In this document: piece after piece, positions 12,302 to 59,870 of the stretch
How positions within the stretch are numbered: the first letter of the stretch is position 1
Layout: every line of letters starts with the position of its first letter
NCBI GenBank assembly: GCA_016217735.1
Contig: JACRGQ010000021.1
Coordinates: 1 to 64,000 of the forward strand
Direction of reading: 5' to 3'
Source of the DNA: Nitrospinota bacterium
GTDB taxonomy: Bacteria; Nitrospinota_A; UBA7883; JACRGQ01
DNA: 64,000 nt
Translations under genes and position numbers: made by a program
Notes under the pieces: generated by a model
What the model saw: only the letters and a program-made list of their open reading frames with translations
Database searches by the model: none
Told to the model about the DNA's origin: nothing

Positions 12302-13689
12302 TTGCACTCCATCCCCAGTTTGAAGCGTTCCCCGGCGGGGGTGGTCTGCACCGCCGCCAGCATCTGCGCGTTCTTCAATCCGCCGGAACCCTCCATCGCC
12401 TTCAACAGGGACGTGGCATTGGCGGAGACCCCGGCGATAGTGACGGCGCAGGGGCGGAATTCAAGCTCGGTGATGAAGGTGTCGCGCGGCAGCCCGCCGG
12501 TGAGCGCCGCAAGCATTTCAAGGTTGAACGATTTTTGGGCGGCGAATGCGTTCATGCCGTCAAAGTAGGCCTGATACTCCCCCATCCTGAGTTGCAACCC
12601 CTCCCCTTTGCGCACCTCGCTCTTGAGCGCCGCCAGTTCCGTTTCGAGGCGGTGCATCGCCTTCCATCGGACGCCGTAGGCCGTGCCGGCCCACACCACC
12701 ATAAGCGCCGCGATTACCGCCGCCGCGCCGCGCAACAGCCGCCGCACGATATGGTGCCGCAGCCGCCGCTGGGTTTTCGGGATGAAGTTGAACGCCGCGC
12801 CATCATGATAAAACCCGGCCGCGGCGAACGCGGCGGCGGCATATTCCACCCCGTCATTTTCTTTTTCCACGGGAAGCGTCTTTACTTTGGCGCTCTTCAG
12901 TTCGGCCCGCGCGGCAAGGCGGTTTGCCGCCGCTTGCCGCAGCCGCGCCGCGCCGCCGGTGATCGTCAGGTTATCCAGATACTCCGGCAGATTGTCCACC
13001 CCGGACGCCAGCTTAAGACGGTCAAACTCGGCGGCGATCTGATCGGCCACCTGCGGGGCGGGGGTGTCGGCCAAAATGCCGGCGCTGAAAAAATCCCGCT
13101 CGTCCAGCTCCGGCTTGAAGCGGAGCCAGCGTGAATAGACTGTTTTTTTGCCGTGCGCGAGGGTCAGGTCAAAACCGTCCCGCGCGATATCGGCGGATGC
13201 GCGGGGCGCATCCCCCGCCGCCGGCAAAAACGCCGCGGAAAAAAGCGAAACGATATCGGCGTGAAGCCCCGCCGCGCGGGCGGCATCGTAATAGGCGTTG
13301 AAATCTTCCAGCTTGAGCCCCGCGAGGTTCACCGTGTAACCGGCATCCGTCCGCTCCGCCACCGTGTAGGAGTGGACAAGGCGGTCGGCGGGAATGGGGA
13401 AATGGCGCGGCACCTCGAATTCCATCATCCGCGCCAGCATCTCGGCGTCGCGGGCCGGGATATGCGCGGAGGTGAGGTGGAACAGGGAGCGCGGCAAAAG
13501 GAGGATGAGATAATCGGGATCGGGGGAAATCTTGTCGAGCGCCTCTTTCACCTGCGCGGCGGCGGCTTCCCGCAGGAAGGAACCCTTTATCAGGGCGGTT
13601 CCCTTCACCGCCCCCCCTTGCAGCCCTTCGGCATACACGGCGGCGGCGCTGAAGCCGTCCCTGATATCCACAACCGCTATTTCACGCAT
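12298..13689 (-). CDS. gspL: GspL-like (PilM-PilN fused) secretion protein
   Basis: 463 aa. An actin-like cytoplasmic part (residues about 1-300, beginning MREIAVVDIRDGFSAAAVY, with LLLLPRSLFHLTSAHIPARDAEMLARMMEFEVPRHFP) is followed by one membrane segment around 325-350 (GAAAVIAALMVVWAGTAYG), a coiled coil, and a periplasmic ferredoxin-like domain (TFITELEFRPCAVTIAGVSANATSLLKAMEG). This is a PilM-like plus PilN-like fusion, as in GspL of type II secretion. It heads an overlapping operon gspL-gspM-rimP-nusA. Its first 14 codons and 5' leader are duplicated at 14,729-14,824. Confidence 0.78.
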   Translation of the reverse strand: MREIAVVDIRDGFSAAAVYAEGLQGGAVKGTALIKGSFLREAAAAQVKEALDKISPDPDYLILLLPRSLFHLTSAHIPARDAEMLARMMEFEVPRHFPIPADRLVHSYTVAERTDAGYTVNLAGLKLEDFNAYYDAARAAGLHADIVSLFSAAFLPAAGDAPRASADIARDGFDLTLAHGKKTVYSRWLRFKPELDERDFFSAGILADTPAPQVADQIAAEFDRLKLASGVDNLPEYLDNLTITGGAARLRQAAANRLAARAELKSAKVKTLPVEKENDGVEYAAAAFAAAGFYHDGAAFNFIPKTQRRLRHHIVRRLLRGAAAVIAALMVVWAGTAYGVRWKAMHRLETELAALKSEVRKGEGLQLRMGEYQAYFDGMNAFAAQKSFNLEMLAALTGGLPRDTFITELEFRPCAVTIAGVSANATSLLKAMEGSGGLKNAQMLAAVQTTPAGERFKLGMECK

Positions 13690-13744
13690 ATACGGAGGCT
13701 ATTCTAACCTCACTGGCGGGCCAAAACGCAAAACTTTTTCGCGC
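13649..13744. repeat. 96-bp direct repeat, copy A (gspL start region)
   Basis: Aligns without gaps to 14,729-14,824 at a constant offset of 1080 bp with 11 mismatches in 96. It covers the first codons of gspL and its leader. The two copies bracket the ferredoxin-metallohydrolase gene. Confidence 0.9.
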
Positions 13745-13853: not shown

Positions 13854-14732
13854 ATGGCCGACCGATCAAAATCGCTCAACGCTAACGTCACTGGCGAGTT
13901 TTTCGTCGATGCCACCTGCATCAACAGCGGCGCGTGCCGCGCCGTGGCTCCGGCCGTCTTTGCCGAGCGCCACGGGCGATCATACGTCCAACGCCAGCCA
14001 ACGAACGATGAGGAGCGCGCGCTGGCGCTGATGGCAAGCGCGGCATGTCCCGCAGGCTCCATCGGCCCGTCGGCGGAAGAGGCGGGGGCGCCGGCCGTCG
14101 AACTCTTTCCGCAAAAGATCGCGGACAATGTGTACTACAACGGCTACAACTCGCCGCTCAGTTTCGGCGCATCGTCATACCTTATCCGGCGGCCGGAAGG
14201 GAACGTGCTTATCGATGCGCCGCGCTTCGAACCGGATCTGGTACGGCGGCTGGAGCAGATGGGGGGCGTGGCGCTGATGTTTCTCACCCACAGGGATGAT
14301 GTGGGGGAACACGAGCGGTTCGCCGCGCATTTCGGCTGCAAACGGATCATGCACCGATCCGACCTGCATCGCGGGTTGACTGCGGTGGAGGTGACGGTGG
14401 AAGGCGTTGAGCCTGTGCGGCTGGCCGGCGACCTGTTGGTGATCCCGGTGCCGGGGCATACCAAAGGCTCCATCTGCCTGTTGCACGGCGCGTTCCTTTT
14501 CACCGGCGACCATCTGGCGCAAAACCCAAACCGCACCCATCCCACGGCTTTCAACAACCATTGCTGGTATTCGCGGCAAGAGCAGACCGCCTCGATGAAA
14601 CGGCTGGCGGCATACGACTTTGAATGGATACTTCCCGGCCACGGCGGCAGGGCGCACTACCCGTTGGGGGAGATGAAACAAAAAATGGCCGAGTGCATCG
14701 CTTGGATGGAAAGCGTACAGGCGCGCACCTGA
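13854..14732 (+). CDS. Metallo-beta-lactamase-fold hydrolase with N-terminal ferredoxin-like domain
   Basis: 292 aa. The N-terminal domain (FVDATCINSGACRAVAPAVF ... SAACPAGSI) resembles the single-cluster ferredoxin fused to this MBL family, but the usual CxxCxxC reads C22-x-x-S25-x-x-C28, with C65, so one ligand is a serine. The hydrolase domain has LTHRDDVGEHERF (the family's variant of HxHxDH), PVPGHTKGSICL, FTGDHLA and LPGHGGR. GGAGG lies 7 bp before the ATG. A candidate promoter is TGACCA-N18-TACAAT just upstream. Its TGA stop at 14,730 is supplied by the first bases of the 96-bp repeat copy B, suggesting the gene's end was formed at the duplication junction. Substrate unknown. Confidence 0.8.
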   Translation: MADRSKSLNANVTGEFFVDATCINSGACRAVAPAVFAERHGRSYVQRQPTNDEERALALMASAACPAGSIGPSAEEAGAPAVELFPQKIADNVYYNGYNSPLSFGASSYLIRRPEGNVLIDAPRFEPDLVRRLEQMGGVALMFLTHRDDVGEHERFAAHFGCKRIMHRSDLHRGLTAVEVTVEGVEPVRLAGDLLVIPVPGHTKGSICLLHGAFLFTGDHLAQNPNRTHPTAFNNHCWYSRQEQTASMKRLAAYDFEWILPGHGGRAHYPLGEMKQKMAECIAWMESVQART

Positions 14733-14824
14733 AGCCGTCCCTGATATCCGCAACCGCTATTTCACGCATTTACGCCGGCCATCCCAACTTTACCGGCGGC
14801 CCAAAACGCAAAACTTTTTCGCGC
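14729..14824. repeat. 96-bp direct repeat, copy B (vestigial gspL start)
   Basis: Second copy of 13,649-13,744. On the minus strand it still encodes MREIAVADIRDGF, then runs antisense into the metallohydrolase gene, so it is a broken gspL start. A clover-leaf element begins 16 bp further on. Confidence 0.9.
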
Positions 14825-14840: not shown

Positions 14841-14899
14841 TGTCATTCCCGCGTAGGCGGGAATCCAGGCTCTGGATGCCCGTCTGCACGGGCATGACA
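14841..14899. mobile_element. Clover-leaf palindromic element, 59 bp, no ORF
   Basis: Reads TGTC, hairpin ATTCCCGC-GTAG-GCGGGAAT, CCAG-GCT-CTGG, hairpin ATGCCCGT-CTGC-ACGGGCAT, GACA. Outer TGTC/GACA and inner CCAG/CTGG pair, giving a three-leaf fold. Same architecture as 46,722-46,798 and the GIY-YIG-bearing copy at 56,940-57,327. Confidence 0.85.
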
Positions 14900-17332: not shown

Positions 17333-17974
17333 ATGGAAAAATTTCAATGCAGCGTATGCGGATACATATACGATCCCGAAAAAGGGGATCCAATAGGCGG
17401 CGCGGCCCCCGGCACCCCGTTTGAGGCGCTTCCGCACTCGTGGGCCTGCCCCCGGTGCAACGCGCGGAAAGACAAATTCTACCCCGGCGTAACGATGCCA
17501 AAAAAGCCGTCGGTGCTGGCCCGGCTTTACTTCACCGAAGACATCGCCTACTACTTCATAGCCTTCATCCTCTTTTTCTCGGCGGCGGCGCTCATCGGCA
17601 TCGCGGTGATGCACCTGGCCAAAGGGCTTACCACCATCAATATCCTCAACGTGGTGAACGACGTGCTGCTGGTGGTCATCATTCTGGAGATATTCAGCAC
17701 GGTGCTGCTCTACCTCACGGAGCGGCGCATCTCGCTCACGCCGTTTATCCTCATCGGCGTTATCTCATCCATCCGGCGCATCCTGATGGTGAGCGCCATG
17801 ATGAGCGTGCAGGACCCCATGAGCGCCGAGTTCTTCGACCGCTCCATCAAGGAACTGGTGGTGAGCACCGGCATAGTGGTCGCCCTTATCGCCGCCTACT
17901 ATCTGCTGACCAAGGTGCTTCCCCAAGCGGAACGCTGCGTGGGGTGCCTGGGGAAAGAACGGCGGGAAGAGTAG
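17333..17974 (+). CDS. Rubredoxin fused to PsiE-like membrane domain
   Basis: 213 aa. Residues 1-50 are a complete rubredoxin: Cys6-x-x-Cys9-[11 protein letters not shown], and Cys39-P-x-Cys42, matching standard rubredoxin numbering. Residues about 68-195 hold four hydrophobic helices ([74 protein letters not shown]), similar to the PsiE family of small inner-membrane proteins. The C-terminus has a further CVGC. AGGAGA precedes the ATG. It may tether a one-electron Fe centre to the membrane; partners are unknown. Confidence 0.78.
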
Positions 17975-17979
17975 CCCGG

Positions 17980-18044
17980 CCATCCTAGGCCTGCCGAAGC
18001 ATCTCTTGCCGGAAAGGGATTCTTCGCCGTTGGCTCAGAATGAC
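17980..18044. repeat. Degenerate GTCAT...ATGAC palindromic repeat
   Basis: Contains GAAGCATCTC, the GCCGGAAAGGGATTCTTCG core and GCTCAGAATGAC; the left end is eroded. Related to repeats at 34,384-34,461, 50,000-50,065 and 53,293-53,358. Confidence 0.75.
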
Positions 18045-18076
18045 ATGCATAAATGGTTTTTCAATGAACTTTTAGG

Positions 18077-29324: not shown

Positions 29325-29347
29325 GATACGCATTGGCGCAAGACGCT

Positions 29348-29578
29348 CTGTTGCCGCTGGCGTGGCAATGGGCGGCAGGAGTGCCGCCCCTGCCGGGAGC
29401 TTTGGGCACATCATGACGCAGCATGACGCGCTGTTGCCGCTGACGCGGCAATGGGCGGCAGGAGTGCCGCCCCTACCGGGAGCATTGGGCACATCATGGC
29501 GCAGATATGCCGCCCTGTTGCCGCGCGCACGGCAATGGGCGGCAGGAGTGCCGCCCCTGCCGGGAGCTTTGAATACCC
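29348..29578. repeat. Tandem array: three 83-84-bp units, each a two-hairpin GGAG element
   Basis: Units start at 29,348, 29,431 and 29,515 (third is shortened). Each has hairpin 1 TTGCC.../...GGCAA and hairpin 2 GGGCGGCA-GGAG-TGCCGCCC (29,370-29,389; 29,453-29,472; 29,537-29,556). Sits between convergent genes, so it may also terminate both. Confidence 0.9.
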
Positions 29579-29580
29579 GG

Positions 29581-30102
29581 TTATTTCAACACATGCACGT
29601 GGGATGTGTGATCCATGCTTGCCAGCCGGGCGGCGGCCTTGAAATCCGCGAGCATTTTTTCCTCATCGCCGGTAGAGTACCAAACGACGCCCCGCTGGAA
29701 ATAGGCCTCCGAAGAATCAGGATTCAGCTCTATCACCTTGGAAAAATCCTCAATGGCGCTCAGGTCGGCGCCAAGCCGGTACAGCGCCTTTCCCCGTTTA
29801 AAGTAGGCTTCCACAAGTTTGGGGTCCAACGCTATTGCCTGGGTATATACCGGCAAGGAGTCCTCGAATTGCCCCGCGTTGCACATTGCGTCGGCCTTTT
29901 TTAAAAAACCCATTGCTTCCTTTTGTTGCGGGGTTTTGGCCGATTCTTTTGCATGCCCGGCATGATCCATATGTTCCATGTGGTCCATATTTTCCATGTT
30001 GTGGTCCGCCGGTTTCTTGGCATGGCCTTCGGAAACGGCGAGAAGCAGCGCGGCCATGAATGCAACGCCAACCAATGAAATGGAAACGGTATTTTTATTC
30101 AT
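29581..30102 (-). CDS. Exported TPR protein with His/Met-rich segment
   Basis: 173 aa. A signal peptide (MNKNTVSISLVGVAFMAALLLAVSEGHA) precedes a His/Met-rich stretch (DHNMENMDHMEHMDHAGHA) that could bind Cu or other soft metals in the periplasm, then about three TPR units (AMGFLKKADAMCNAGQFEDSLPVYTQAIALDP, KLVEAYFKRGKALYRLGADLSAIEDFSKVIELNP, DSSEAYFQRGVVWYSTGDEEKMLADFKAA). It ends in HTSHVHVLK. It is convergent with the membrane SpeE-like gene. The metal role is inferred. Confidence 0.75.
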   Translation of the reverse strand: MNKNTVSISLVGVAFMAALLLAVSEGHAKKPADHNMENMDHMEHMDHAGHAKESAKTPQQKEAMGFLKKADAMCNAGQFEDSLPVYTQAIALDPKLVEAYFKRGKALYRLGADLSAIEDFSKVIELNPDSSEAYFQRGVVWYSTGDEEKMLADFKAAARLASMDHTSHVHVLK

Positions 30103-34323: not shown

Positions 34324-34383
34324 ATGTCCCTATTATCCACGATTCCCGATGTTAAATGAAGAAAACGGCGTGCTGGCGGCTTT

Positions 34384-34461
34384 GTCATGCTGAGCCAACG
34401 GCGAAGCATCTCTTTCCCTTCTTTTTTCCGGAAAGGGATTCTTCACTACGCTCAGAATGAC
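34384..34461. repeat. GTCAT...ATGAC palindromic repeat (family A)
   Basis: Ends GTCATGCTGAGC / CTCAGAATGAC are imperfect inverted copies; core has TTCCGGAAAGGGATTCTTC. Same family as 50,000-50,065 and 53,293-53,358. Confidence 0.85.
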
Positions 34462-34481
34462 AAAACCCGCGCCAATTCCGT

Positions 34482-46721: not shown

Positions 46722-46798
46722 TGTCATTCCCGCGAAAGCGGGAATCCAGAAAGTTTTAAGGAAAAAACACTGGGTGCCGGGTCAAGCTCGGCATGACA
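46722..46798. mobile_element. Clover-leaf palindromic element, 77 bp, no ORF
   Basis: TGTC, hairpin ATTCCCGC-GAAA-GCGGGAAT, CCAG, 20-nt A-rich loop, CTGG, hairpin GTGCCGGG-TCAAG-CTCGGCAT (two G.U pairs), GACA. Lies in the fmt leader, 14 bp before the fmt ATG. Confidence 0.85.
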
Positions 46799-49988: not shown

Positions 49989-49999
49989 TAACGCGCGCT

Positions 50000-50065
50000 G
50001 TCATCCTGAGCACCGCGAAGAATCCCTTTCCGGAAAGGGATTCTTCGCCTATGGCTCAGAATGAC
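50000..50065. repeat. GTCAT...ATGAC palindromic repeat (family A)
   Basis: GTCATCCTGAGC ... CTTTCCGGAAAGG ... GGCTCAGAATGAC. Lies between convergent uxs and the hybrid kinase and overlaps the last bases before the kinase stop. Confidence 0.88.
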
Positions 50066-50069
50066 CGCG

Positions 50070-53000
50070 TCAGGGAAAATATTTTCTGATGCCGGGGAGC
50101 AGTTCGGCGGAGACATCTTTTTTCGTCATGAAGACGTCCGCGCCCAACGCCACGGCGCGATCCCGCTCCTCGACGGCGGCGCCGGTGAGGGCGATGACCG
50201 GAATGGCGCGCGATGACGGCGCCGACTTGAGCGCTTTAATCAACGCAAAGCCGTCCATGCCCGGCATATAGAGATCCACAATAACGAGATGGGGCGGCCG
50301 CTCGGCGATTTTCTCCATCGCTTCCCCGCCATTGGCGGCGGCCTCCACCTTCACCCGCGTTTTCCGCAGAACCTCCCTGACCAGTTCAATCCCGTTGGGG
50401 TCGTCGTCCACCACCAGCACAACCGGATCGGGCATGGGAAGAACGATCGAAAAAACGCTTCCCCGCCCCACGGCCGATTCCACGCGGAGGTCTCCCCCGT
50501 GGGCCGTGGCGATGTCCTTGCACAGCGGCAATCCGAGGCCGGTTCCCGTTTCGCCCCCGGTTCCGGCGGTCGATGTCTTGGCCTCGTAACTGAACAGCGT
50601 TTCAATGGCGGCGGCGGGAATTCCCACGCCGGTATCGGTTACGGCAATCACGGCGGGATTCCCCGGCGTGAAGCCGACGGTGGCCGAGCCCCCCGCGCGG
50701 GTGAACTTGACGGCGTTGGTGAGGAGGTTCAGCAGCGCCTGATATAGCAGCGGCTCGTCGGCGTATACACGCGCCCCTTCCGGCACGTTATTGACGACGG
50801 CCACCCCTTTTGCCCGGGCGGCATGGGCCACGGCCCCGGCCGCTTTCGCGGCAAGGGGGCGCAACGGCAAGAACGCGGCATACAGCATAAAACGTCCGCT
50901 TTTCAGGCGGCTGGCGCTCAGCAACTCGTCGATCATGCCGGCCATTTCACGGTTGCCGTCGAGAAGTACCGTCAGGATTTCCCGTGTGTGCTGATCCATC
51001 GCCGCCGTCCCGTCCTCCAGCAGGAGTTTCAGGTGCCCCCCGGCGATAACCAATGGGCCGCGCAGATCATGCGATACCAGCGAGACGAACTTGTCCTTCA
51101 TCTCCGTCGCTTTTTCGGCGCGCTCCTTCGCCTCCACCAGCGCCCGCTCGGCCTCCTTGCGGGCCGAGAGGTCGCGCATGGCCACCATCCGCATCTGTTT
51201 TCCGCGGTAATTGATGTAGCGCCCCCGCACCTCGCTGGGGAAAGGCGTGCCGTCGGCCTTTAAGCCGGTAAGCTCGAACGGGCGGGAAACCGGCGCCTTG
51301 AGTTGTTTGATAACGGTCTCATGGGATTCCTTGGCCAAAAGATCAAGCACATGCTTGCCGATCAGCTCCCGCTCCGGGTATCCGGCCATGGCGTGGGCGG
51401 CGGGATTGGCGTCCACGATGACCCCGCCGTCGTGAATCACCATCCCCTCGAACGACCCGTCAAAGAAATGCCGCAGCCGCTCTTCCTGCAACCTGATTAT
51501 TTCTTCGGCCCGCAATTGTTCCGATATGTCGCGGAACACCACCATCATCGCCGGACTTCCCTGATACGAGAACGGCATCGCGGCCACCTCCACATCAATG
51601 GGCGTGCCGTCAAGTTTCAGGAACTTCTCGCGGATAAGCGGCAATGCCTTCTCGCCGGACTGCATGGCGCGGATCCGCTGCTTCACCAACGGACGGTCAT
51701 CGGGATGGACGAAATCCATCAATTGCCGCCCTTCCAGTTCGGCGGGACTTTCGGCGCCAAACACTTTCGCGGCGGCATCGTTGACAAAGCGGACGTAACC
51801 GCCCGAATGCACCACCAGCGGATCGGGGAGAAGCGATACCAGCGTGCGGTAGCGTTCCTCGTTTTCCGTCAACGCCGCTTCGGCCAAATTGCGCGCGGTG
51901 ACGTCATGCACGGTGGAGTGTATGAGGGAACGTCCCCCCACGGTGACCGGGCTGCTGTAAACCTCCACATCGCGGATTTCGCCGCTGGCAAGCCGGTGCT
52001 TAAAATGGAAGCAGGCGCGCCGCTCTTTTTTGGCGCGCTCCGCTTCCGCCTTCGCCTCATCCGGGGAGAGGGTGTTGATGTAGCTGATCTTCATCTGCCG
52101 CAGGTCGTCTTGCGGGTAGCCGTAAAATTCGGCGGCGGCCTGGTTGGCGTCGATGATCCCGGCGGTGGCCGGGTCCGTCAACAGGTTCACCATTCCGTTC
52201 CGCTCGAACATCTGGCGGTAGAGATCTTCGCTCAGGCGCAACGCGGCCTCGTATTCCTCGCGGGCCGCCGCATCGCGGAAAACCACCTTCATGATTTTTT
52301 TGCCGCCGTATTCCACCACCGCCAGGGTGAGGTCAACCGGCAGGCGGGCGCCGTCTTTGCGCAACAGGGAGAGCCTGTTGACATAACCGCCGCCGCCGCG
52401 TTCAACATGGCTTACCGCGTTCATGATGCGCGGCAGTTCTTCTTCCGGGTGGATTTGGAGCATCCGCATCCGGAACAGTTCATCGCGCGTATAGCCCAGC
52501 GTTTTAAGCGCCTTTTTGTTGGCCTCGATGAAGACGCCGTCCATCTCCGCCAGCAGGATGATGTCCCCCGCGTTGTCCACGATCATCCGGTATTTCTCTT
52601 CGCTTGCGCGCAAGGCGGCTCCGGCCAACTCGCGCTCTTTCAGAAGGGCAAGCAGCCATTCGGCGCGCCGCATTTCCATTGGCGCTTCCCCTTTCACGGA
52701 GGGAGCGGGGAAGTTCCCGAAAAGCACCCCTTCATATACCAGCCGGGGGTGGCGGGCGATGGCATTGAAAATAACCTCGGCGGAGCAGCCGTCCAACCGG
52801 TATTGGCACATGCCGGCGGCATGGTGCGCGCGCAGAAACGCGTCCATCCGCTGAAAGCCGCCATCCGCGCCGCCGCCCAGGCATTGGAAAAAATCGCCGG
52901 TGATCCGGATGCCGATATAGCCGGCGTCCTTGGCCTCTTCCAGCGCCCTTTCCAAAACCCCCGCGGGGGAATCACCGGAAACCTGAAAGCCGCCGCTGTT

Positions 53001-53264: not shown

Positions 53265-53358
53265 GTCATTCTGAAAGCGCGTCAGCGACTCTGTCATCCT
53301 GAGCCGCAGGCGAAGGATCTCTTTCCGGAAAGGGATTCTTCGCTACGCTCAGAATGAC
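53265..53358. repeat. GTCAT...ATGAC palindromic repeat plus an extra half copy (family A)
   Basis: The full copy spans 53,293-53,358 (GTCATCCTGAGC ... GCTCAGAATGAC); another GTCATTCTGA half lies at 53,265. Between the hybrid-kinase start and the mfd end. Confidence 0.85.
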
Positions 53359-53434
53359 AAGCATAAATAGTCTTTCAGTGCGCGGCGGCCAGCGCCAATC
53401 GTTCGCGCCTATTCTAGCATGCCGGGAACGGGTA

Positions 53435-56400
53435 TTATTCCCTGCGCGCGGCGGCGTCCGTGGCGCAGTGGGAGAGGTAGGCGGCGACGGCGGCGGGGAT
53501 TTTTTCGGGGGCCATGCCGGTGATTTCAATCCGGATGCGGTTCTCGGCTCCGGCGGCGATTTTACCCTTAAAAAACTTCGGGGCGTTGGCGGCCAGCAGC
53601 GGCGCGGGGTTCGGCTCTTTGGGAAAGGCCATGCGAAGCTGGTTTCCGGTCAATTCCACCTTTTCCAAGCCCAGCTTTATCCCGGCCATCCGTATCGTTA
53701 CCGCTTCCACCAGCTTCTGGGCCTTGTCCGGCGGCGAGCCGAAGCGGTCGGCCATCTCCTCGGCCACCTGCTGTATCTCGTCGGTGTTCTTGGCCCGGTA
53801 AAGGCGGCTGTAAAAATTCATGCGCTGGTCCAGCGGCGGGATGTAGGCGGCGTCAAGCTTGCCGGTGAATTCAAGCGCGAGGGCGCATTCCGCCGCGGCG
53901 GGAGGTTTGCCGGTGCGCAGCTCCTGCACCGCCTCTTCCATCATCCGGAGGTAGGTCTCGAAACCGACGGCGGTGATCTGGCCGCTCTGCTGCGGCCCCA
54001 GCAGGTTGCCGGTGCCGCGTATCTCCATGTCGCGCGCCGCCAGCTTGAAGCCGGAGCCAAGCTCGCTCAGTTCCTCCATCGCCTTGATCCGTTTTTTCGC
54101 CAGCGGCGCGAGCGTATCGGGCACCAGCAGATAGGCGTACGCGCGGTGGCGGTCGCGGCCCACGCGGCCCCGCAGCTGATACAGCTGCCCCAGGCCGAAC
54201 TTGTCGGCGCGGTTGATGATGATGGTGTTGGCGTTGGGGATGTCCAGCCCGCTTTCCACGATGGTGGTGCATACCAGCATGTCTATCTTGTGGCGGATGA
54301 AGCGGTCCATCTTTCCCGAAAGTTCGTGCGCGCCCATCTGCCCGTGGGCCGCCTCCGCCCGCACGCCGGGAACAAGCTGCTTGAGGTACCGCGCCATGTT
54401 TTCGAGCGACCGCACGGAATTGTGCAGGAAAAATATCTGGCCGCCGCGGCTCAGCTCGCGGTTGATGGCTTCAACGATGGTCGGCTCGTTGAACTTGCGT
54501 ATCAGCGTCTTGATGGAGAGCCGGTTGGCGGGCGGGGTGTTGATGACGCTGATATCGCGGATGCCGGAAATCGCCATGTGCAGCGTGCGGGGGATCGGCG
54601 TGGCGGTGAGCGTCAGCACGTCCACCGTCTCGCGCAGCTTTTTCAGCTTCTCCTTATGCGCCACGCCGAACTTCTGCTCCTCGTCGATAATGACCAGCCC
54701 AAGCGAGGGGAAGTGTACGTCTTTTTGCAGCAGGCGGTGCGTGCCGATCACGACGTCGATTTCGCCGGCGGCGATCCGTTGCACCGCTTCTTTCTGTTCC
54801 GCCGGCGTCACGAAGCGGCTCAGCATCGCCACCTTCACGCCGAACGGCTCCATGCGCCGCTTGAAATTTTCAAAGTGCTGGTTCACCAGCAGCGTGGTGG
54901 GGGCCAGCAGCGCGGTCTGCTTGCCGTTCACCGCCGCCTTGAACGCGGCGCGGATGGCCACCTCGGTCTTGCCGTACCCCACGTCGCCGCAGACCAGACG
55001 GTCCATCGGCTTCGGCGCCTCCATGTCGGCGATCACGTCGGCTATCGCCTGCGCCTGATCCGGCGTTTCAAGGTAGCCGAACGAATCGGCGAATTCGCGC
55101 TCGTGGTGCGCCTCCTTGCCGTGGGCGTAGGCCTCGCCGGTCTTGCGGCGGGCGTAAAGCTCCAGCAGTTCCTTCGCCATCCGCATGATCCCCTTCTTCA
55201 CCTTCTCCTGGGTCTTGGCCCACGTCTTTCCCCCCATCCGGTCGAGCACCGGCTTCGCCCCGCCACCACCGGAAAATTTTTCCAGCAGGTGGATGGAGGA
55301 GATGGGAAGAAAGAGCCGCTGGTCTTCGGCGTATTCGATTTCGAGGTACTCCTCCGCCGCCCCCCCGGAGCTGATCGATTTGAGGCCGTGGTACTGCCCC
55401 ACGCCGTGATCGCGGTGCACCACATAGTCGCCCGGCTTTACATCGGCGAAATCGGTGATGAATACGGGGGCCTTTTTCCGCGCGGCGCGGCGCGGTTCGG
55501 CGTGGCGGCCAAAGATTTCCTCTTCCGTAACGGCGGCGAGCTTGATCGCGTCGAAAGTGAATCCTTCGGGGAGCGGTGCGGCGGCGGCGAACAATACGGG
55601 GGGTATCTGTTCGCCGGAGGCAAGCCGGAGGATGAGCTGCGGCACCTCCGGCGCGGGAAGGCGCGCAAGCCCCATCTCTTCCTCGGCCAGCAGCTTTTCC
55701 ACGCGAGCGATGGTCTCTTCGCCGCTGGCGGCCAAAAGCGTGGTGATGCCGCGCGCGCTCCGCTCGCGGCAGTCGTAAATGAAGCGGCTGAACGCGCCCC
55801 GCAGCCGGTCCGCCTCGCGGGTGGCCACGGTGACGCAGCGTTCGCTTTCCGGCTCGTCGGCTATCTCGTGAAAATCGAGGCCGTCGGCCGCCTCCAGCAG
55901 CAGTTCCAGCTCTTCGCGCGGCGCGTAAAGCAGGGCGGGAGGCGGAAAAATATCCCCCCGTTCCTTCGCTTCGGCGTATCCGCTTTGTATCTCTTTCCCA
56001 AAAAGGTCGAGACGCTCTTGTATCTTCTCCGGTTCGCAGACGATGACCAGCGCGTCCGGCGGCAGATGCGCCAGCGGGGCGGCGGCATCGGGGTGGAAAA
56101 ACGGCAGGTAGTGCTCCATCGCGGGGAAGAACTGCGCGTTGAGCACGCGGCTTTTGAGAAGATCGAGCTTTACGTTGTTCTCTTTTTCGTATTGTTCGAT
56201 GTTCGCGGCCACCTCTTCCGGCTTGACCGACAGATAGTGGGTATCCTTCACGGCGGTCAGCAGGGCGCTCTCGGCCTGTCCGAGCGAGCGTTGCGAATCG
56301 GAATCGAAGCGGCGGATGCCCTCCACCTCGTCGTCGAAAAACTCGATGCGCAACGGCGCGGCCTCGTGTGGCGGGTAGCAATCCAAAATGCCGCCGCGGA

Positions 56401-56887
56401 ATGCGAACTGTCCCGGCTCCTGCACCGGGTCGGTATGGGCGTAACCGGCGAGCGTTAAAAAGTTTCCCAGCCGGTCACGGTCGGCGGTTTCCCCCACGCG
56501 CAAGGAAAAAACGCTTTCGCGCGCCACGCGCGGCGGCGGGGCTTTTTGCAGCAGGGCGGCGGCGGTGGTGACGGTGATGGCCGGCGCGCCGGAGGCAAGC
56601 CGGTGGAGCGCCAATGCGCGCGCGGCGGCGATCTCGGGAAGGTGCGAGAGCGGCTCGTACGGCAACGTTTCCCACTGCGGCAGGTAGAGCAGGTCGTCCC
56701 GCCCCGCGAGGTGGAAATCGAGGGCAGCGGTAAAACGCTCCGCCTCCGCATTATCCGCCGTGATTATCACGATGTGCCGCTTGCGCTTGAGGAAGAGTGC
56801 GGCGGCGCAGAGCGCCTGCGCGGCGGCGGTAAGCCCCTGCAGCCGTTTGCGGGCGCGGCCCGGTTCAAGTATCGCTAAAAGGGACAT
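53435..56887 (-). CDS. mfd: Transcription-repair coupling factor
   Basis: 1150 aa, normal length. UvrB-like N-terminal region (QWETLPYEPLSHLPEIAAARALAL), RNAP-interacting CarD-type domain (FADVKPGDYVVHRDHGVGQYHGL), translocase motor with GDVGYGKTEVAIRAAFKA, APTTLLVNQHFENFKRRM, VIIDEEQKFGV (DEEQ), LTLTATPIPRTLHMA, and the C-terminal TRCF domain (EFTGKLDAAYIPPLDQRMNFYSRLYRA). It removes stalled RNAP and recruits UvrA. The start codon region is duplicated beyond the GIY-YIG cassette. Confidence 0.96.
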   Translation of the reverse strand: MSLLAILEPGRARKRLQGLTAAAQALCAAALFLKRKRHIVIITADNAEAERFTAALDFHLAGRDDLLYLPQWETLPYEPLSHLPEIAAARALALHRLASGAPAITVTTAAALLQKAPPPRVARESVFSLRVGETADRDRLGNFLTLAGYAHTDPVQEPGQFAFRGGILDCYPPHEAAPLRIEFFDDEVEGIRRFDSDSQRSLGQAESALLTAVKDTHYLSVKPEEVAANIEQYEKENNVKLDLLKSRVLNAQFFPAMEHYLPFFHPDAAAPLAHLPPDALVIVCEPEKIQERLDLFGKEIQSGYAEAKERGDIFPPPALLYAPREELELLLEAADGLDFHEIADEPESERCVTVATREADRLRGAFSRFIYDCRERSARGITTLLAASGEETIARVEKLLAEEEMGLARLPAPEVPQLILRLASGEQIPPVLFAAAAPLPEGFTFDAIKLAAVTEEEIFGRHAEPRRAARKKAPVFITDFADVKPGDYVVHRDHGVGQYHGLKSISSGGAAEEYLEIEYAEDQRLFLPISSIHLLEKFSGGGGAKPVLDRMGGKTWAKTQEKVKKGIMRMAKELLELYARRKTGEAYAHGKEAHHEREFADSFGYLETPDQAQAIADVIADMEAPKPMDRLVCGDVGYGKTEVAIRAAFKAAVNGKQTALLAPTTLLVNQHFENFKRRMEPFGVKVAMLSRFVTPAEQKEAVQRIAAGEIDVVIGTHRLLQKDVHFPSLGLVIIDEEQKFGVAHKEKLKKLRETVDVLTLTATPIPRTLHMAISGIRDISVINTPPANRLSIKTLIRKFNEPTIVEAINRELSRGGQIFFLHNSVRSLENMARYLKQLVPGVRAEAAHGQMGAHELSGKMDRFIRHKIDMLVCTTIVESGLDIPNANTIIINRADKFGLGQLYQLRGRVGRDRHRAYAYLLVPDTLAPLAKKRIKAMEELSELGSGFKLAARDMEIRGTGNLLGPQQSGQITAVGFETYLRMMEEAVQELRTGKPPAAAECALALEFTGKLDAAYIPPLDQRMNFYSRLYRAKNTDEIQQVAEEMADRFGSPPDKAQKLVEAVTIRMAGIKLGLEKVELTGNQLRMAFPKEPNPAPLLAANAPKFFKGKIAAGAENRIRIEITGMAPEKIPAAVAAYLSHCATDAAARRE

Positions 56888-56931
56888 GGGGATAAAGAAT
56901 AGCAGGAAGCGCCGTTCCCGGCGAAAAAATC
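56882..56931. repeat. Direct repeat, copy 1 (mfd start/leader)
   Basis: GGACAT ... AGCAGGAAGCGCCG ... CGGCGAAAAAAT; matches 57,333-57,380 at roughly 80% with a 1-bp gap. The CAT at 56,885-56,887 is the mfd start codon. The small internal hairpin is kept in both copies by compensating changes. Confidence 0.8.
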
Positions 56932-56939
56932 TCTTTTCC

Positions 56940-57327
56940 TGTCATCCCCGCGCAGGCGGGGATCCAGTCATAATTTCAAAGCTGTTCTTCCCCAACCTAC
57001 ATAAGCCCGTCATACAGGTCTTTCCAATCCGGATTCCCTTGCTCAATAAGCCGCAGCTTCCACTTCCTCTCCCATTTCTTGAGCTGCTTTTCCCGCATGA
57101 TCGCACCATGCACGCTGCCGGTGTGTTCATAATAAACAAGTATCGTTATCCCATATCGCTTCGAGAACCCTTCCACCATCCCGTTTTTGTGTTCATAGAC
57201 TCTTCGCGCAAGATTATTGGTCATGCCAATGTACAAAGTGCCATTACGCTTGCTGGCCATGATATAGACGAAATACTGCTTCATCAGTAGTCAAGAATAC
57301 TGGATTCCCGCATGCGCGGGAATGACA
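56940..57327. mobile_element. GIY-YIG endonuclease cassette with clover-leaf ends
   Basis: Left end: TGTC, hairpin ATCCCCGC-GCAG-GCGGGGAT, CCAG. Right end: CTGG, hairpin ATTCCCGC-ATGC-GCGGGAAT, GACA. Ends are inverted copies (about 26 of 29 positions). The GIY-YIG gene occupies the centre. Same ends as the ORF-less elements at 14,841 and 46,722. Flanked 8 bp and 5 bp outside by an approximately 50-bp direct repeat of the mfd start. Confidence 0.85.
56997..57284 (-). CDS. Stand-alone GIY-YIG endonuclease
   Basis: 95 aa, the size of the COG2827 single-domain family. Motifs: VYIMASKRNGTLYIGMTNNLARRVYEH (Tyr7, the YIG at 18-20, catalytic Arg27, His32) and the catalytic Glu in GAIMREKQLKKWERKWK. 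It would cleave or nick DNA. It is encoded wholly inside a clover-leaf palindromic element (56,940-57,327), which suggests it serves the element's mobility rather than host repair, although that is inference. No promoter or SD stands out. Confidence 0.9.
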   Translation of the reverse strand: MKQYFVYIMASKRNGTLYIGMTNNLARRVYEHKNGMVEGFSKRYGITILVYYEHTGSVHGAIMREKQLKKWERKWKLRLIEQGNPDWKDLYDGLM

Positions 57328-57332
57328 AGAAA

Positions 57333-57380
57333 GGACATAGAAATAAGAATAACAGGAAGCGCCGCCAGCGGCGAAAAAAA
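57333..57380. repeat. Direct repeat, copy 2 (duplicated mfd start/leader)
   Basis: GGACAT ... AACAGGAAGCGCCG ... CGGCGAAAAAAAT; second copy of 56,882-56,931, 5 bp outside the cassette. Confidence 0.8.
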
Positions 57381-57399: not shown

Positions 57400-57506
57400 A
57401 ACCACGAATATCACGAAGGACACGAATGGGAAAATGCGAAATGAATTATGGGGTTATTATTCTTGCTTGCTTCCATCCCCACCATTTCTTCGTGCTATTC
57501 GTGGTT
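57400..57506. repeat. 107-bp long inverted repeat
   Basis: Arms AACCACGAATATCACGAAG (57,400-57,418) and CTTCGTGCTATTCGTGGTT (57,488-57,506), 18 of 19 complementary, around a 69-nt loop without an ORF. Lies just after the mutS2 stop. Confidence 0.85.
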
Positions 57507-57530
57507 GAAAGAAAATGAAGTGAGTAGTGG

Positions 57531-59870
57531 TCAGTCTTTCAGTTCGGCGAGGGTGACGGCGTCGCCCCCCTCGGCGGCGGCGCCGGGGCCGTACCCCTTC
57601 ACATATGAACAGGTCTTGAGGTAGTCCAGCACCCTGCCGCGGACGATGGCGCGGCCATGGACGATCTTCACCCGCTCGGCCCCCGCGAGAAGTTGGGAAT
57701 CGAGGAATTTGTCCAGCGCTTCGCAGGCGTCCTCGCCGGTCATGCCGATCAGGTTTATTTCGGGGGCCTCTTCGGCGGCGGGGAGCATCATGCGGCGCGC
57801 GGGGGCGGCGTCCAGCGCGGCCTTCTCCTTTATGCCGATGACCTCGTCGCGCCCCAGCGTCATGCGGAGTCCCCGGCAGAACACTTCCACTTTTCCGTCG
57901 TCGGTGATCTTCGCCAGTTGCGCTTCGCGGTCCAGCGGGAGAATCCAAACGGCATCCCCCTGTTTGAGATGTTCCAGCGGCACCGAATCAGGGCGTTTGA
58001 TGGCCGCCACCATTTCGGTTTCCATCTCCTTCAGACGGCGGGCGGCTTCCTCTTTTGCTTTGGTGTCCTGCGTGCGGGTTTCTTCCAGCATGGCACGCAA
58101 CTCGGCGCGGGCCTTCGCCACTTCGTCCTTCAGCCGCTGTTTTTTATCCCGCTCGAAAGCATCCTTGGCCCGTTCGGCCGCTTCCCGCTCGCGTTGCAAA
58201 CGGGCGCGTTCGGCTTCGGCCCCCGCCTTCTCTTGTTCAAGCTCCGCCACGCGGCGGCGCATCTCGTCCGATTTCTTTTGAAGGTCCAGAAGGGCCACCT
58301 GATAAATATCGTGCGTGCTGGAAAGGAGGCTCTTTGCTTTTTCCATGACCGAGGCGGAGATGCCGATGGCGGCCGCCACGTCGAGCGGATGGCTGACGCC
58401 GGGGTGTCCTTTGGCAAGGTGGAACGTGGGGCGGCCATCGGCCCCGAACCCCATCGCGGCGTTGACCAGCGCGGGGTTTTCCTGCGCGGCGACTTTAAGC
58501 TGCGGCAGGTGGGTGGAAACAAAAACGCGGCAATCCTTCGCCGCGAGATCCTCCAGTACCGCCTGCGCGAGGGCCGACGCCTGCGCCGGGTCGGTGCCGT
58601 TCAATATTTCGTCGATGATGACCCATGTACCCGGCCCGGCGGTTTCGAGCGCCTCCTTGATGCCGCGCAACTGCGCCGAGAAGGTCGATTCACCCTCGGC
58701 GATGGATTGCTCGTCGCCGGCGATGGCGTGGAGTTTTTCCACAAACGGGAAGCGCGAGCCTTCCCCCACCGGCGGCAATACGCCGCTTTGGGCCAACAAC
58801 GCGGCCAGCCCCACCGATTTCAGCATCACCGTCTTGCCCCCCGCGTTGGGGCCGGATATCACCAGCACCTTTTCCTGTTGGGTCATCAACAGGTCGTTGG
58901 GCAGCGGTTTCTCCCCCGCCAGCAGCATCAGCGGGTGACGCACGGCGCGCATGGCGATGCCGCCGGGGGCGAAGGCGGGCCGCGTTCCCCCTATCGCCAG
59001 CGACACGGCGGCCTTGGCCGCAACCGCATCCAGCCGCGCCATAGCGGCGTGGCAGGCGGTGATGGTATCGGCGTTTTCGCGCAGCATGGCGGCGGCTTCG
59101 CGCAGCAGGCGGTAGATTTCCTCATCGCGCTCGGCGGCGGCCTCGCGCAGGGCGTTGTTCTCCTTCACCAGTTCCTGCGGCTCCATGAAAACCGTTTTGT
59201 CGGTGGCTGATATGCCGTGGATGATGCCGGGAAAAACGTTTTTGAATTCCGCTTTCACCGGCAGCACCACGCGGTCGTTGCGGATGGTGACATAGGTATC
59301 CTGAAAACGCCCCTCCAGCCCGGCCCGCGTGAGCATCTCCTCGGCCTTTTTGTGGATGCGCCCGCGCAACGCCGCGATGCGCGATTCCAGCTCCATGAGC
59401 AGCGCGGTGGCGTCCGGCTTCACGCCGCCGTCTTCGGAAAAAGTCCTGCTGAAAAAAGCCGTGATCTCCTCCAGCGAAACGAAACCGGCGGCGGCGGCGT
59501 GCAGCGCCGCTTTGTCCGGGTTGTCCCGCAAAAATTCATCCAGCCGTTCGGCCCCGCGCAGGAAGCGCCACATGATCTTGCAGTCGTCTTTTTCGGGGAC
59601 GGCCCCCCGCTTCACGCGGGCCAGCGCGGGAGCGGGATCGGGTATCGCGTTGGGAAACAGCAGGCCGCCCCCCTTGAGCAGCGGCAGCATCTCCACCGTT
59701 TCGTCGAGCAGATGTTCGGCCTCTTCGCGCGCGGCGGCGGGCAGCAGTTCGCGGCAGAGGCCGGCCCCGGCCTCGGTGCGGCAGTGCGCGGCGAGCGCGT
59801 CGCGCAGCAGGCCGAATTCCAGCGCCTTGGCGGCGCGCGTGGCGCCGGATGCGCGCGGTTTTTGCGTCAT
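57531..59870 (-). CDS. mutS2: Endonuclease MutS2
   Basis: 779 aa. N-terminal clamp/lever region (GLLRDALAAHCRTEAGAGLCREL), ATPase with Walker A ISGPNAGGKTVMLKSVGLAALLAQSG, AGDEQSIAEGESTFSAQLRGIKEAL, and WVIIDEILNGTDPAQASALAQAVL; a long coiled coil (EMRRRVAELEQEKAGAEAERARLQ); KOW-like stretch; C-terminal Smr domain with EINLIGMTGEDACEALDKFLDSQLLAGAERVKIVHGR. In the Smr domain the usual LDLRG reads INLIG and HGKG reads HGRA, so nuclease activity may be changed. It may act in ribosome rescue or recombination control. Confidence 0.92.
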   Translation of the reverse strand: MTQKPRASGATRAAKALEFGLLRDALAAHCRTEAGAGLCRELLPAAAREEAEHLLDETVEMLPLLKGGGLLFPNAIPDPAPALARVKRGAVPEKDDCKIMWRFLRGAERLDEFLRDNPDKAALHAAAAGFVSLEEITAFFSRTFSEDGGVKPDATALLMELESRIAALRGRIHKKAEEMLTRAGLEGRFQDTYVTIRNDRVVLPVKAEFKNVFPGIIHGISATDKTVFMEPQELVKENNALREAAAERDEEIYRLLREAAAMLRENADTITACHAAMARLDAVAAKAAVSLAIGGTRPAFAPGGIAMRAVRHPLMLLAGEKPLPNDLLMTQQEKVLVISGPNAGGKTVMLKSVGLAALLAQSGVLPPVGEGSRFPFVEKLHAIAGDEQSIAEGESTFSAQLRGIKEALETAGPGTWVIIDEILNGTDPAQASALAQAVLEDLAAKDCRVFVSTHLPQLKVAAQENPALVNAAMGFGADGRPTFHLAKGHPGVSHPLDVAAAIGISASVMEKAKSLLSSTHDIYQVALLDLQKKSDEMRRRVAELEQEKAGAEAERARLQREREAAERAKDAFERDKKQRLKDEVAKARAELRAMLEETRTQDTKAKEEAARRLKEMETEMVAAIKRPDSVPLEHLKQGDAVWILPLDREAQLAKITDDGKVEVFCRGLRMTLGRDEVIGIKEKAALDAAPARRMMLPAAEEAPEINLIGMTGEDACEALDKFLDSQLLAGAERVKIVHGRAIVRGRVLDYLKTCSYVKGYGPGAAAEGGDAVTLAELKD

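Follow-up and report, generated by a model that had tools for sequence, protein, structure and literature searches.

Among the bacterial repetitive extragenic palindromes (REPs), those of the CGTC type were described in a 2013 survey as apparently lacking a dedicated transposase (Di Nocera 2013, PMC3733652). The survey defines CGTC-1 REPs by a CGTC or TGTC tag, an 8-bp stem starting with AT, a 4-nt loop and a CCA tail, arranged mainly as head-to-head (HH) dimers, and places CGTC REPs in many phyla, counting among them dRS3 of Neisseria as well as repeats from Rickettsia and Wolbachia. In the RAYT-REPIN system and its REPtrons, a nuclease gene lies between inverted REPs, with many gene-less doublets and few kept gene copies, and the enzyme, RAYT, belongs to the HUH tyrosine transposases and works on REPs with a GTAG tag (PMC3116915, PMC2817692). 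Here we describe a 388-bp element (56940-57327) in the first 64,000 nt of contig JACRGQ010000021.1 of a Nitrospinota bacterium (assembly GCA_016217735.1; this whole stretch is the window), which has a similar layout but an unrelated nuclease, of the GIY-YIG family, and CGTC/TGTC tags. It is probably an Ssn-type cassette (for the Ssn nuclease, see below), with a GIY-YIG nuclease gene inside a head-out pair of CGTC-class REPs, and thus the GIY-YIG counterpart of a REPtron, working by the mechanism proposed below. Its nuclease is the strongest candidate for the enzyme that CGTC-type REPs had seemed to lack.

The ends of the element are two inverted palindromes of 28 nt with TGTC outermost, as a previous sequence-only reading of this DNA had proposed in describing them as TGTC-hairpin-CCAG and CTGG-hairpin-GACA copies of each other. 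Both follow the CGTC-1 definition point by point: the tag is TGTC and unpaired, the 8-bp stem starts with AT, the loop has 4 nt and the tail is CCAG (Table 1). The term clover-leaf, also applied to them then, overstates their fold, since each end is one simple hairpin. The right stem differs from the left one by a compensated change, where ATTCCCGC/GCGGGAAT replaces ATCCCCGC/GCGGGGAT. The only gene inside is, as that reading also held, the one for a 95-aa GIY-YIG nuclease (Pfam E = 2.8e-15), and the CATAATTTCAAAGCT of the left inner spacer is common to the tail region of many gene-less REPs of the same genome.

The pairing of this gene with inverted REPs recurs across its relatives. Homologues found by genome search fall into a close group (46-76% identity) and a distant one (40% or less, fragments aside), and a profile scan of genome contigs detected at least 578 relatives, from which 80 loci were kept and 78 were usable; the kept loci come from groups as far apart as Bacteroidetes, Proteobacteria, Omnitrophus and candidate phyla. 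When the 250 nt on either side of the gene, upstream and downstream, were compared with each other and their best inverted match was scored, 68 of the 78 loci exceeded the 99th percentile of 1053 control windows from the same loci, and several of the 10 failures carry REPs whose stems differ on the two sides. A stricter test demanded, on each side of the gene, a hairpin preceded by a GTC tag; it was positive for 57 of 94 loci, compared with 2 of 304 control positions. The median distance of the tag was 46 nt to the start codon and 44 nt to the stop codon. Among the 14 loci that the genome search yielded for the close clade, 11 have scores of 27-77 and 3 have scores of 19-26, while 14 of 15 distant GIY-YIG homologues, including a second GIY-YIG gene of this same genome (L002), scored at background. 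Because the pairing of gene and ends recurs so far above controls, a chance association is excluded. The sequence-only reading had named in advance two patterns that would count against it: genes of this subfamily without such ends, which turn out to be very rare among the relatives, and an association no better than chance, whereas the one found stands far above the controls. Neither pattern thus refutes the reading.

These ends are selected as hairpins. The arms were picked by the similarity between the two sides, with no hairpin demanded, and 83% of them contain a stem of at least 7 bp, versus 0.15% of shuffled arms; Watson-Crick pairing in the stems is 0.76 in register, and sliding by 1-3 nt lowers it to 0.39 or less. 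The stems are of 23 distinct kinds, with several pair types at most positions, and the tail is mostly CCAG, CCAT or CCAC. A tag and a tail that are kept, together with stems that drift with compensation, are what would be expected if a folded single strand were recognised.

The 95-aa protein consists of a single domain, in which the GIY-YIG catalytic residues are intact and invariant in the relatives (Y7, Y18, G20, R28, E65 and N84). Its AlphaFold2 model (mean pLDDT 94.3) is closest among solved folds to UPF0213/YazA, Slx1 and the N-terminal nuclease domain of UvrC, and the protein leaves no space for another DNA-binding domain. The catalytic domain and fold are shared with homing endonucleases of the I-TevI type and with UPF0213/YazA; unlike the I-TevI type, the gene is not intron-borne and encodes no separate DNA-binding domain, and the distant homologues in this comparison lack flanking REPs. 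A homologue in Neisseria gonorrhoeae (55% identity over 89 aa, E 3e-17) sits among dRS3-type (CGTC-1) repeats. We take it to be Ssn, a site-specific single-stranded DNA (ssDNA) nuclease that is likewise a small single-domain GIY-YIG protein. In a 2025 study in Nature Communications, this Neisseria enzyme reportedly acts on the NTS repeat and affects transformation, and thousands of homologues are said to exist. Judging by sequence kinship, the 95-aa protein is probably of the Ssn type, and with an enzyme of that family the cutting of folded single-stranded ends would not be new as biochemistry. This kinship and the literature on Ssn make it probable that the nuclease nicks single strands at folded REPs.

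REPs also abound away from the gene. Whole-genome pattern searches turned up the palindrome in 20 exact and 40 near-exact copies, many of them in inverted dimers, versus none for a reversed control pattern, and all close REP pairs listed for this genome have the tag outside (head-out). The gene-less 59-bp and 77-bp elements with the same ends, already pointed out by the sequence-only reading, are indeed present in the window; the pair of halves that forms the 59-bp dimer turns up again at other genome sites, and the 77-bp one proves to be a hybrid dimer.

Table 1. Features of the element, its surroundings and related repeats (window coordinates)
Feature	Position	Strand	Remarks
Left terminal REP	56940-56967	+	TGTCATCCCCGCGCAGGCGGGGATCCAG
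Left REP, tag	56940-56943	+	TGTC
Left REP, first stem arm	56944-56951	+	ATCCCCGC
Left REP, loop	56952-56955	+	GCAG
Left REP, second stem arm	56956-56963	+	GCGGGGAT
Left REP, tail	56964-56967	+	CCAG
Inner spacer after left REP	56968-56996		holds CATAATTTCAAAGCT
Gene for 95-aa GIY-YIG nuclease	56997-57284	-	only substantial coding open reading frame (ORF) between the REPs
Inner spacer, start codon to right REP	57285-57299
Right terminal REP, inverted copy	57300-57327	-	TGTCATTCCCGCGCATGCGGGAATCCAG as read on the - strand
Direct repeat (~50 nt, mfd leader), left copy	56879-56929		candidate long target-site duplication
Direct repeat (~50 nt, mfd leader), right copy	57330-57379		begins 2 nt outside the right REP
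mfd (presumed, by recognition of the translated ORF)	53435-56887	-
mutS2 (presumed, by recognition of the translated ORF)	57531-59870	-
Gene-less head-out REP dimer, 59 bp	14841-14899		3-nt spacer; the two stems differ
Gene-less hybrid dimer, 77 bp	46722-46798
Hybrid dimer, CGTC-1-type arm	46722-46749	+
Hybrid dimer, 5-nt-loop arm	46770-46798	-	TGTCATGCCGGGCTTGACCCGGCACCCAG-type
Second GTCAT family	17974-18045
Second GTCAT family	34383-34463
Second GTCAT family	49995-50071
Second GTCAT family	53287-53360

Other repeats were recorded beside these REPs. A second inverted-repeat family also starts with GTCAT (TGTCATNCTGAGC...GCGAAGNATC...CTTTCCGGAAAGGGATTCTTCG...GCTCAGAATGACA), and in another genome a GIY-YIG gene of this subfamily (L031) has a related repeat at its flanks. 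A third GTCAT-type repeat, TGTCATTGCGAGGCCATCGAAGATGGCCGCGGCAATC, occurs in 8 near-identical copies on contigs C5, C7, C8, C17, C44, C61 and C65 of this genome. The window also contains an inverted repeat, TTAACCACGAATATCACGAAGG ... CTTCGTGCTATTCGTGGTTGAA, at 57400-57510, another palindromic intergenic repeat lying between the element and mutS2; a 96-nt direct repeat (13649-13744 and 14729-14824, 89% identical), whose second copy stops 16 nt before the 59-bp dimer; and an 83-nt unit repeated three times in tandem at 29338-29587 and rich in GGCAATGGGCGGCAGGAGTGCCGCCCC. On contig C71 of this genome (L022), a REP dimer is nested within another palindrome, AGTGTAGTGTCCCGGTA ... TACTGGGACACTACACT, an arrangement that resembles the CGTC-1 dimers inside palindromes of H. 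neapolitanus, as presented in the survey (PMC3733652).

Comparisons between genomes set the limits of the element at its outer ends. In 395 pairwise alignments of element regions, about two thirds of the alignment ends fall near the gene edge and 28-29% per side lie within 5 nt of the outer TGTC end, while fewer than 1% of the pairs run more than 10 nt beyond the outer ends. The element of a congener (G001) is 77% identical to that of the window (G000) from TGTC through GACA, in a different neighbourhood: it adjoins a gene that we take to be histidine-kinase-like, and the translated comparison with the window region is strong only across the element. In the window, the element is sited between mutS2 and mfd, and a copy of the ~50-nt mfd leader lies on both of its sides; in a close relative, whose Mfd N-terminus is 91% identical (G003), the leader occurs once, with neither gene nor REP at the orthologous site. 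A comparable case was found in Lacinutrix (L116), where an RNA-helicase-like gene ends in 55 nt that recur, with 91% identity, on the far side of the element; one copy abuts the left element end exactly. These observations are suggestive of a long target-site duplication at the element ends. As a general rule such a duplication was rejected, given only two clean cases, and three further loci (L070, L122 and L089) proved to be REP arrays whose repeating unit is a spacer with its REP, so that the direct repeats found there are uninformative; short target-site duplications showed no excess over permuted pairs. Inside single genomes, the best gene pairs are L065/L066 (81%) and the two copies of Sinorhizobium sp. 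M103 (93.5%), which lie at different sites and whose match is bounded by REP-type repeats. An apparent empty hflX-mazG site in this strain was false: the gene is present there, and the extra REPs alone are missing.

The fate of the gene can be followed at the dnaN-recF site, which was compared in 106 Bradyrhizobium genomes. The gene or a broken form of it is found in 26 of them, and gene-less sites retain REP-like ends on both sides (17), on one side (13) or on neither (50); at one locus (L184) the gene is mostly deleted and both ends persist. Intact copies are under strong purifying selection (median dN/dS 0.058) and, together with the many gene-less sites, this indicates a gene that works where it is kept and is often lost. 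Repeated insertion, our first reading of this site, was abandoned, as remnant ends at many gene-less sites favour loss. At L221 and loci classed with it, this intergenic site is taken up by another palindromic element (CCCTCTCCCCTTGTGGGAGAGGG...), whose nuclease gene is of the DUF559 / REase_MTES_1575 type. To judge by the one ORF checked, this may be a parallel system of a nuclease within a palindrome. Elsewhere, a gene of the subfamily lies between sufB and sufC on a plasmid of Azospirillum lipoferum (L292), with whole REP dimers flanking both sides. A member of the subfamily in S. meliloti is flanked by repeats of this type, which we take to be RIME1 intergenic elements; they differ from the REPs in being longer composites with a CCTC tag and an extra hairpin.

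How such a cassette could work can be outlined. A REP that becomes single-stranded, on the lagging strand or during transformation or repair, would fold into a hairpin, leaving the TGTC tag and the CCAG tail unpaired; the nuclease would bind the folded REP and nick one strand at or near a conserved unpaired end; two nicked head-out REPs would then delimit a unit, with the gene between them or not, and host replication or repair would move or copy it. Gene-bearing units would be rare and kept by selection, and the gene-less dimers would be non-autonomous derivatives served in trans. The relation between an autonomous element and its miniatures, suggested by the sequence-only reading, is a fair analogy as regards the shared ends; the REPs, however, are numerous and the gene copies few and diverged, just as with RAYTs and REPINs, which means that the gene is no prolific transposon. 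The whole element is classed as working like a REPtron without being one, for the enzyme gene is flanked by REPs abundant in the genome but the protein belongs to the GIY-YIG family and not to the HUH tyrosine transposases.

That the nuclease mobilises CGTC REPs, in a DNA-only transposition without transposase, integrase or reverse transcriptase, where folded ends are nicked, host repair finishes the process and target duplications of ~50-60 nt sometimes arise, seems to us quite conceivable and is put forward tentatively. We infer the cleavage by the 95-aa protein, the position of the cut and its role in REP spread, neither cleavage nor excision nor insertion having been observed. Other points also weigh against the cassette model outlined above. 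The empty orthologous site sought after the sequence-only reading exists in G003, in that gene and REP are absent, but it carries ~1.2 kb of other DNA and is not a clean junction. Most of the ~55 elements show no long flanking duplication; clean ones at both ends are limited to the window and L116, array cases apart, and the window copies are imperfect (86% identity across a 35-nt core). Gene copies inside one genome are mostly diverged, so recent gene transposition is rare, and as a feature of the relatives' genomes it was rejected. The Bradyrhizobium mosaic can largely be read as the repeated loss of an old element, and whole dimers stand on either side of the gene in Neisseria, Azospirillum and Sinorhizobium, where it is not enclosed in a single one. 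Nor does the repeat type match gene presence cleanly genome by genome, as three relatives without the close-clade gene (G002, G007 and G010) carry these REPs.

Some of these facts agree with a different account, possible although doubtful, where Ssn is a host-kept nuclease and the REPs are recognition sites for another job, such as filtering or shaping incoming ssDNA in transformation; the flanking REPs would mark or regulate the gene, and REPs would be spread by other enzymes or by recombination. The strong purifying selection, the persistence of the gene at dnaN-recF, the few gene copies beside many REPs and the three REP-bearing relatives without the gene fit this account, as does the Neisseria enzyme, which reportedly modulates transformation via NTS repeats. 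Alone, it leaves unexplained why REPs are the outer homology boundaries in unrelated contexts, as well as the element-free site, the flanking duplication and the M103 same-genome duplicate. An unlikely alternative is a homing-type gene, whose nuclease would cut gene-less REP dimers so that the gene, copied in by recombination, invades existing dimers. Abundant gene-less dimers with shared ends, the REP-like ends of gene-less dnaN-recF sites and the gene between whole dimers in some taxa would all suit homing, but the orthologous site of G003 has no REP, spacers, ends and gene align as one unit between species, and entry into an existing dimer would not predict a duplicated target outside the ends (G000 and L116). 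Most improbable is the insertion by chance of an unrelated gene into a repeat, an option that the sequence-only reading had kept, or REPs as mere terminators beside the gene. REPs do generally favour intergenic sites downstream of genes, according to the survey (PMC3733652), yet an inverted pair equally close on both gene sides in most relatives of many phyla, its near absence from the control positions and the distant GIY-YIG genes without such a pair exclude this explanation.

Each part of this system has been described before, or probably so; joined as they are here, they supply the CGTC REPs with a dedicated enzyme as partner and make up a unit whose ends are defined. The 2013 account (PMC3733652), in the parts consulted, makes no tie between CGTC REPs and GIY-YIG genes, and our literature search, which did not extend to the Ssn study, found no paper connecting GIY-YIG genes with REPs. 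A gene lying between CGTC REPs in most of a broad sample is a direct and testable partner for REPs to which the survey could assign no enzyme, without deciding if they have a transposase (PMC3733652). If the nuclease does not move them, the same data would point to a nuclease that the host keeps and whose gene is marked by its own targets. If it does, bacteria would have a second route of REP spread, evolved independently of the RAYT transposases, in which a simple nuclease supports mobility and host repair does the rest.
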